From: Vibrio coralliirubri | Lineage (GTDB): Bacteria > Pseudomonadota > Gammaproteobacteria > Enterobacterales > Vibrionaceae | Assembly: GCF_024347375.1 (NCBI RefSeq) | Contig: NZ_AP025470.1 | Coordinates: 2,232,001-2,296,000, forward strand | Reading direction: 5' to 3' | Length of the DNA: 64,000 nt | Part shown: in pieces, positions 35,295 to 36,222 of the stretch | Layout of the letters: each line of letters begins with the position of its first letter | Numbering within the stretch: the first letter of the stretch is position 1 | Made by a program: the position numbers and the translations under genes | Notes under the pieces: generated by a model | Databases searched by the model: none | Seen by the model: the letters and a program-made list of their open reading frames with translations, nothing else | Told to the model about the DNA's origin: nothing

Positions 35295-36080
35295 GGTACA
35301 ACTCAGAATGCTCGTTAAACCACTGAAAGTAAGAACAGTACCTAACAAAGTAACGAAATAGAACAGCCACTTTATTTTAGGGTTTAAAATGAAGATTCCT
35401 GCTAAGTAACGGCATGCTCCTATTACCAGCAAACATGCCGCTGTCCACTCAGTGAGTAGGGCAAAATGCGCGGCAATCAATAATGCCGATATGCTTAATG
35501 CGGACAAAAGTAGCGTACGATTTTTAAACTGAAACGATGCGATATCGAATAGCGCAGCTAAACCAACCAATATTTGGGAGGCAACAAAAAGGGACATAAC
35601 CCCTCCAATAATAACCAAGTAATAGAGAAAACGTTCTAGCGGCTCAGAGCTATAGAGCACTGAGCGCATGATTCAGATTATAAATTGCAGGGGAGGTATA
35701 TCGCGACAGCTTGAGTCAGACAGATAGAGGAAATTTCAACATTAAATATATTCATATTGTATTCCTCCCGTCGGTGCTGCTAATAGTCATCGCGATTCTA
35801 CAGGAAAATGCCGAAGAAAAAAGGTAATGTCACCTTTCGTTACCATTCGACATAACCCATTGATCTTATGGATTATGACAATAGTTGAAAAGAAATATAA
35901 CGCCGCGTTAAGTGGTGAGCAACGCCAACCACCCGACCTAAACCATTGTGACAGAAACACTTAAACCCAAGAAAGCCGAAAACGCCAAGCGTTGGGAATC
36001 CGTCTTAAACGCTTTGTATGGATAATAAGCGCTCCAATCGGGTAATGTGAGACCCAGGCTTTAGCTGCAACTAAAGCTTT

Positions 36081-36150
36081 CTATGTAGCAGTTCGTTTAA
36101 ACGCTGGCTCCTCTATCGAGAGACCGATAACAAACATGAACGCTACATAG
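36081..36150 (+). ncRNA. Putative bridge RNA target-binding loop of the IS110-type element
   Basis: CTATGTAGC (36081-36089) pairs with GCTACATAG (36142-36150), and GTTC (36091-36094) with GAAC (36138-36141). In the internal loop are guide 1 TTAAACGCT (36097-36105), identical to the left target flank. An apical hairpin CTCT-ATCG-AGAG (36111-36122) follows. Guide 2 ATAACAAAC (36127-36135) is complementary to the right flank GTTTGTTAT. Further on, ATAGTCG near 36173 matches the element's own right end, as expected for a donor guide. The full RNA probably covers most of 36018-36222. Confidence 0.7.
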
Positions 36151-36222
36151 GACTTCAAGCATAAACCTCGAATAGTCGACTGGGTCTCGAACCCGCATTA
36201 CGCAAGCATGAGTTAGCTTATT

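Follow-up and report, generated by a model that had tools for sequence, protein, structure and literature searches.

The insertion that splits the attC beside intI in the window (the whole stretch of 64,000 nucleotides that was analyzed) is very probably an IS110-type element of the IS621 kind whose bridge RNA is directed at the gene-proximal side of attC, as in the cycle proposed below. The element is 1,185 bp long (36015-37197 plus one copy of the core) and lies in the spacer between L'' (TTAAA..., from 36005) and R'' (GTTAT, plus strand 37201-37205). The host genome has two contigs and 5.74 Mb, and the cassettes of the window's integron are on the minus strand, running leftwards. A first-pass annotation had proposed an IS110-type element with an RNA guide for the gene-proximal attC core; our analysis supports such an element, with a bridge-RNA-like NCR and guides that match the R''/L'' side of attC. 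The element and its surroundings have the following features.

35897..36012, minus strand: R'-L'-loop-L'' part of the attC, severed from R'' by the element (ATAACGCCGCGTTAAG...CTTAAACGC)
36005..36013, plus strand: left target TTAAACGCT, the same as the left target guide (letters compared)
36013..36014, plus strand: left core dinucleotide TT, target-derived if the IS621 rule applies (junctions of relatives, IS621 passages)
36015..36021, plus strand: right donor TGTATGG, the left end of the element (sequence)
36021..36026, plus strand: -10-like box GATAAT; in the joined-end string a spacer of 17 bp separates it from the -35-like box of the right end (spacing by eye)
36223..37179, plus strand: DEDD recombinase, 318 aa (Pfam PF01548 and PF02371; NCBIfam NF033542; PDB IS621 and ISCro4)
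37183..37188, plus strand: -35-like box TTGACG at the right end (sequence)
37191..37197, plus strand: left donor ATAGTCG, the right end of the element (identical to the left donor guide)
37198..37199, plus strand: right core dinucleotide TT, donor-derived if the IS621 rule applies (copies of relatives compared)
37200..37205, plus strand: right target TGTTAT, the R'' core of attC (copies of relatives compared)
37220..37576, minus strand: first cassette gene, its attC split by the element (uninterrupted counterpart of the cassette in L147)
37863..38837, plus strand: integron integrase intI (TIGR02249 of NCBIfam, 455.6 bits against a cut-off of 265)

The recombinase and the layout of the element were those of the IS110 group. 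The protein scored 203.8 bits against NF033542 (cut-off 140) and is related to IS621 at E 7e-30; it is a DEDD recombinase with the C-terminal Tnp domain and the catalytic serine of that group, and its residues D14, E58, D100, D103 and S238 face the IS621 catalytic residues in an alignment judged by eye. The NCR is upstream of the recombinase gene, as in IS110 elements, with 208 nt there versus 18 nt downstream. The longest inverted repeat of the element ends is TATGG, 5 bp. A second, identical copy is present in the same genome (contig 1, 1,901,617), in another attC-like site.

The insertion removed no base from attC. Locus L147, in genome G216 of the same genus, carries the same cassette at 97% identity, followed by an uninterrupted attC. 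This empty attC reads ...TTGAACGCTTTGTTATGTACG, with the attC end given as ...TTGAACGCTTTGTTATGTACGTGG, and the order at the occupied site in the window is TTAAACGCT, element, TTTGTTATGTACGTGG. Comparison of the two indicates that no base was lost and that the core alone is present at both ends. A two-base core common to target and donor, with no further duplication, was found both with L147 and at the junctions of 95 copies of the element.

Both target guides in the NCR match the DNA on either side of the element. The left guide, TTAAACGCT at 36097-36105, equals the left flank at 36005-36013, and the stem proposed to enclose it (36081-36089/36142-36150) is present, both as first described. 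The apical hairpin placed at 36111-36122 is also there, with a larger extent in the new model (36106-36125). The right guide as originally drawn, ATAACAAAC (36127-36135), is complementary to GTTTGTTAT (37197-37205), but not all nine of those bases are target: G37197 is the last left-donor base of the element, with C in its place in the L147 empty site, and TT at 37198-37199 is the core common to target and donor. This leaves 8 nt over which the right target guide matches the core and the right target; the last C of the nine occupies the handshake-guide position. A donor loop with two donor guides lies in the same NCR, beyond the target loop of the first-pass annotation.

The double match was unlikely to arise by chance, as had been claimed. 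At 62,571 other positions in the window, the left 9-mer was found in the NCR 80 times, the right 8-mer was complementary to the NCR 252 times, and both together occurred at none. Among 20,000 shuffles of the NCR the corresponding numbers were 12, 137 and 0. The claim that the target is repeated in every attC was overstated: the exact left 9-mer is absent from some. There are seven attC signature matches in the window, four of them judged intact by eye; the left target guide matches 8, 6, 5 and 8 of 9 bases in these four, and TTGTTA is present in three. That attC offers a "safe, renewable target" stays an idea.

The NCR can form a two-loop RNA with two guides per loop, as in other IS110 elements, the donor stem showing little co-variation and the right donor guide being placed by homology. 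Its parts, all on the plus strand, are these.

36045..36222: bridge RNA region, ends approximate (fold and alignment of relatives)
36058..36077: 5' stem-loop of the RNA (helix 1, both-side changes in 4 of 7 pairs)
36081..36150: target-binding loop with its closing stem (helix 2, both-side changes in 7 of 13 pairs; apical helix 3 invariant)
36097..36105: left target guide (LTG) TTAAACGCT (equals the left flank; permutation test in relatives)
36127..36134: right target guide (RTG) ATAACAAA (complementary to core TT and TGTTAT)
36135: handshake-guide position, a C here (possible pairing partner of donor G37197)
36152..36213: donor-binding loop (helices 4-6, 90 to 99.4% of cells paired; both-side changes in 1 of 10 pairs)
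36172..36178: left donor guide (LDG) ATAGTCG (the copy's own right end is identical in 88 of 91 copies)
36197..36206: right donor guide (RDG) ATTACGCAAG (by homology to IS621 positions, by eye)

The structure of this RNA was conserved among relatives. The NCR folded at -56.1 kcal/mol (z -4.1), and none of 200 shuffles was as low. In an alignment of 40 copies, hand-chosen out of 117 and leaving out L027 and L066, 96.9% of cells were paired and 12 of 37 pairs had changes on both sides; none of 500 shuffles was as high on both measures, and slid controls were lower too. It is the 5' hairpin and the stem closing the target loop that supply this structural co-variation. In the donor loop, one of ten pairs changed on both sides, and further pair types were unexceptional (16 of 500 shuffles were as high). 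An Rfam scan of the window gave no family at gathering score. A possible long-range helix, 36049-36057/36180-36188, between GAGACCCAG close to the 5' end and CTGGGTCTC in the hairpin of the donor loop, is part of the minimum-energy fold and was left out of the model; 95.3% of its cells were paired, with co-variation not beyond that of shuffles. This helix and the donor loop would be mutually competing structures, and the helix might act as a switch.

The machinery looks canonical for IS110 and like that of IS621. Shared with IS621 and ISCro4 are the DEDD recombinase with matching catalytic positions, the upstream NCR, the target and donor loops in guide-hairpin-guide order, the xT core, the handshake position, a short ATA/TAT terminal repeat, and promoter-like boxes at the joined ends. 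The RDG pattern is shared as well: ATTTGCAAG, the form in relatives, is consistent with every RDG position of IS621 that passages of the IS621 structure paper name, and would pair discontinuously with xTTGTAT. The proteins are distantly related (E 7e-30). IS621 targets REP-type sites, and the target here is the L''-R'' side of attC.

The guides changed together with their own donors and targets among relatives. Relatives were collected by protein similarity, not by location: a search of the genus gave 60 of 227 genomes at E 1e-60, a collection of genome contigs supplied the best 80 of 143 confirmed loci, and these two sources with further stretches yielded 117 distinct copies of the element. 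Both ends and the guides were present in 95; L049, L074, L084 and L087, whose left flanks were short or masked, were excluded, and 91 were scored. Three of the 91 (L085, L086 and L088, from one genome) have a contig that ends right after TTGTTA.

The left donor guide followed the element ends closely. In 88 of 91 copies the LDG was identical to the right end of the same copy, and four types did so (ATAGTCT in 48, ATAGTCG in 31, ATACTCG in 7 and ATAGCCC in 2); the mismatches were L034 and L057 (ATAGTCT with ATAGTCG) and L103. Opposite the donor core, the RTG has a fitting base in every copy but L034 (90 of 91; 39 with T and A, 51 with C and G). L034 combines LDG ATAGTCT and an RTG for a C core with the right end ATAGTCGT, which gives it the look of a hybrid between two types of element. 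The handshake base can pair with donor position 7 in 69 of 91 copies (C-G in 39, A-T in 30); in IS621 the handshake base pairs with that position, according to passages of PMC11208158.

Right targets vary little across the copies. The RTG agreed with core plus GTTA in 84 of 91, to which two joint changes (L064, TCGTTA; L071, TTATTA) add up to 86. The pairing is shifted by one base in L068 and L130, and L083, L131_1316 and L140 have a right flank unlike the RTG. At the junctions, the left side keeps a variable base (x) before T and the right side has T or C, as if the left junction came from the target and the right one from the donor, which would fit the IS621 rules. In IS621 the second core base is almost always T and the top strand is cut after the core (passages of PMC11208158), and each guide pairing includes the core (passages of PMC11208160). 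The target core base tended to equal that of the donor (T or C, p = 0.0076, with 7 A/G copies excluded and kinship uncorrected). In L064, right flank and RTG changed together (TCGTTA with AACGA) and the left junction is TT; this contradicts a strict rule that the left junction comes from the target unless the other strand was kept, and we gave it no weight.

The LTG fit its own left flank far better than permuted flanks. Taking the commonest flank for each of 34 distinct LTGs, the mean fit was 6.79 of 9 bases versus 5.07 when permuted, with none of 5,000 permutations as high; the permutations ignore relatedness. The result was again 0 of 5,000 both for 22 LTGs from copies of less than 76% identity and for the 8 LTGs that are not of the TT[AG]A type. 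The fit was complete (9 of 9) in L068, L071, L114 and L088, which have quite different sequences, and poor in L139 (5 of 9) and L142 (3 of 9). Two registers of the LTG on its flank were seen: with offsets 0-3 allowed, 88 of 91 copies fell at offset 1 or 2, indicating that pairing beside the core must be loose. No exact second copy of the Shewanella left flank was found in the L068 and L064 genomes, where counts were near those of a reversed-pattern control. Thus guides co-vary with target and donor for the LTG, the LDG and the core base of the RTG. Neither the same guides at unrelated targets nor a lack of conserved structure, the two findings named at the outset as fatal to the proposal, appeared among the relatives; the fold and alignment showed guides that co-vary with flanks and an RNA whose structure is conserved.

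Judging by the flanks, one clade, down to about 41% protein identity, appears to use the R'' core of attC, and the outgroup flanks that were read do not have it. A class-wide sample of 369 genomes included 37 with matches, among them the window's own, and flanks were read in 18 of the other 36. CTTGTTA was at the end of the element in L168 (65% identity), L172/L190 (68%, partial), L169 (55%), L170, L171, L182 and L184 (48-49%) and L173 (41%), and an attC was recognized by eye on the left of L168, L169, L171 and L173. This end was absent from L174-L178, L180, L181, L187 and L191 (29-40%). L185 and L186, with 43.6% identity over 140 residues, have no TTGTTA after the gene, so identity alone is not a clade marker. 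The right flank was unreadable in L183, L188 and L189. A tree of 42 proteins placed the 33 rows bearing the R''-core user label in one group (100/100); L064, L071 and L083 carried this label despite differing right flanks, L183 was labelled "other" with its right flank off the contig, and L168, L172, L178, L182 and L184-L186 were not in the tree. The tree program warned of long outgroup branches, which makes the deeper order unsure. The outgroup member L174 has the same layout with another guide and another flank, GGGGGAGC and GCTCCCCC (by eye), and its guide for GCTCCCCC matches its own flank.

Most copies, though not all, are at attC sites. Insertion in attC was observed at the window site, from the empty site in L147 and the motif signature. 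A motif signature of the far end (R') of attC was present in 57 of 91 left flanks versus 9.8% of shuffled flanks; this signature is too narrow, although it separated better than two pairing tests, and computed recognition of attC in the flanks was moderate overall. Stem-arm pairing identified an attC in 30 of 91 (at p 0.05), and L'/L'' complementarity in 34 of 91 versus 10.2%, each with weak separation from shuffles. By eye, the 34 flanks without the signature comprised 15 attC-like flanks with an altered R' end, which in five (L009, L011, L036, L055 and L102) came from the end of another element; 7 partial or unclear ones (L027, L083, L089, L114, L116, L120_1276 and L141); and 12 without a recognizable attC (L026, L030, L037, L044, L045, L046, L056, L064, L070, L103, L118 and L119). 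These 12 retain TTGTTA (in L064 TCGTTA, matched by the guide), and their mean LTG fit was 7.0 of 9, compared to 6.99 for all 91, which speaks for recognition of linear sequence. The element was not associated with the integron integrase across genomes (39 of 60 carriers versus 107 of 167 non-carriers, p = 1).

Recognition might instead be of attC in its folded single-stranded form, or be made by the recombinase protein itself, with the guide-like stretches as by-products of past recombination. The prevalence of attC among the copies (57 of 91 by signature) and the loose register of LTG pairing are what such a mechanism would lead one to expect. However, the guides track unusual flanks in L064, L068 and L071, the LTG fits as well where no attC is recognizable, and L174 combines the same layout with a different guide and a different flank. 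We therefore consider this explanation quite unlikely. Chance or inherited drift, without function, as the source of the identity between guides and flanks is less credible still. The right targets are nearly invariant in the clade, such that identity between RTG and right target alone cannot discriminate, but changes in the LTG and LDG go with changes in the DNA that they match, and the permutation, structure and chance tests speak against drift.

It is just as improbable that the window element is a member of the IS1111-attC group, which has already been described. A DEDD recombinase and an attC target are common to both, and attC targeting is already known for IS1111 elements from passages of PMC11187229. 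In IS1111 elements the NCR is downstream, a rule with few exceptions (passages of PMC11187229), whereas here it is upstream, and the subterminal inverted repeats of 7-17 bp given for IS1111 in passages of PMC11208160 contrast with the 5 bp of TATGG. The guide with the bottom-strand match comes first, as for IS110 and in the reverse of the IS1111 order (passages of PMC11187229), and BLASTP with an IS1111-like protein (that of L032) found no real similarity (E 1.0). We thus favor guide-directed insertion of an IS110-type element.

Elements that we read as IS1111-like from their downstream NCR were found at the opposite end of the same attC. In L032 (3-1211) and L055 (2-1183), to the left of the IS110 element, a recombinase of the IS110 family belongs to an element that ends at the R' side. 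Their NCRs contain TTAATGCGG (L032) and TAATGCGG (L055), which by eye are complementary to the neighboring CCGCATTA(A). Passages of PMC11187229 show that guide RNAs (seekRNA) serve IS1111 elements found at attC; together with these matches, this suggests that two families can occupy opposite ends of one attC. Similar IS1111-like ends were seen in L034 and L098 by motif search and in L009, L011, L036 and L102 by eye.

Based on these results, we propose the following cycle. The element would leave as a circle, and its joined ends would form a promoter, TTGACG-17 bp-GATAAT, from which both the recombinase gene and the NCR ahead of it could be transcribed. As a bridge RNA, the NCR transcript would associate with the recombinase. 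In the donor loop, the LDG would pair with ATAGTCG and the RDG with xTTGTAT, both at the joined ends. In the target loop, the LTG would pair with one attC strand on the L'' side, and the RTG with the opposite strand at the core and the GTTA of the R'' box. The circle would then enter between L'' and R'', always in the same orientation, by recombination at the two-base core (xT). This would split attC without loss of a base, and the reverse reaction would restore attC; cassette movement might be affected. We also put forward a broader scenario, tentatively and suspecting that it may well not hold as a whole: that one IS110 clade, distributed among several families of Gammaproteobacteria, has aimed its bridge RNA at the R'' core of attC since before its recombinases diverged to about 41% identity and has mainly retuned the left guide to local L'' variants, and that a separate IS1111 lineage aims at the R' end of the same sites, so that cassettes are parasitized from both ends and attC is reversibly locked and unlocked.

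Several known systems resemble this one in part. Class C-attC group II introns move by retrohoming with unrelated machinery. They too are mobile elements that enter attC (passages of PMC9229058). The IS1111-attC group (ISKpn4, ISPst6 and ISPa25, with seekRNA) shares RNA-guided entry into one end of attC (passages of PMC11187229), and differs in its downstream NCR, longer subterminal repeats and reversed guide order. ISEc21, an IS110-type element for which seekRNA has been demonstrated, shares an upstream NCR that is needed for movement and guides to both target strands, according to the same passages; its target, in contrast, is in IS3-family transposase genes. Passages of a 2022 survey of Shewanella integrons (PMC9229058) describe IS110-like elements in arrays, none interrupting attC, from which we suspect that attC insertions may have been overlooked. 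PMC11208160 mentions attC only within a reference title. No published report of attC insertion by an IS110-type element whose NCR is upstream was found in a search that took in few subscription journals and no bioRxiv preprints. Tetu and Holmes 2008 is cited in connection with IS1111-attC elements. What is added here is a target class not found in print for the IS110 type, its conservation in one clade, and a two-ended attack on attC. The guides, donors and targets of about 90 natural copies can be read side by side, and the data set shows the extent of relaxed pairing in nature. The findings also link the bridge-RNA field to integrons, where exact entry and a possible exact exit could switch cassette mobility off and on.

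Other sequences related to the element were found in the window and elsewhere. The start-codon region at 36213-36234 (AGCTTATTATGAATACCAAA) is nearly the reverse complement of the left end at 36013-36030 (TTTGTATGGATAATAAGC), and relatives with ATGAATACAAA show the same. Remnants of the right end lie near 1.86 Mb of contig 1 (L003 1501-1797 and L004 1501-1723, 94% identity) and still continue into TTGTTAGC and TTGTTATGC. In a plasmid collection, 40 records matched window positions 36013-37199 (27 from Vibrio, 7 from Photobacterium and 6 from others), and 14 of them cover at least 80% of the query. Seven copies of a different transposase stretch, of the DDE type, are distributed over the two strands of the window (16208, 19332, 20528, 23119, 29406, 34341 and 47235); the gene that holds it has a Pfam DDE_Tnp_1_5 match at 34295-35215.
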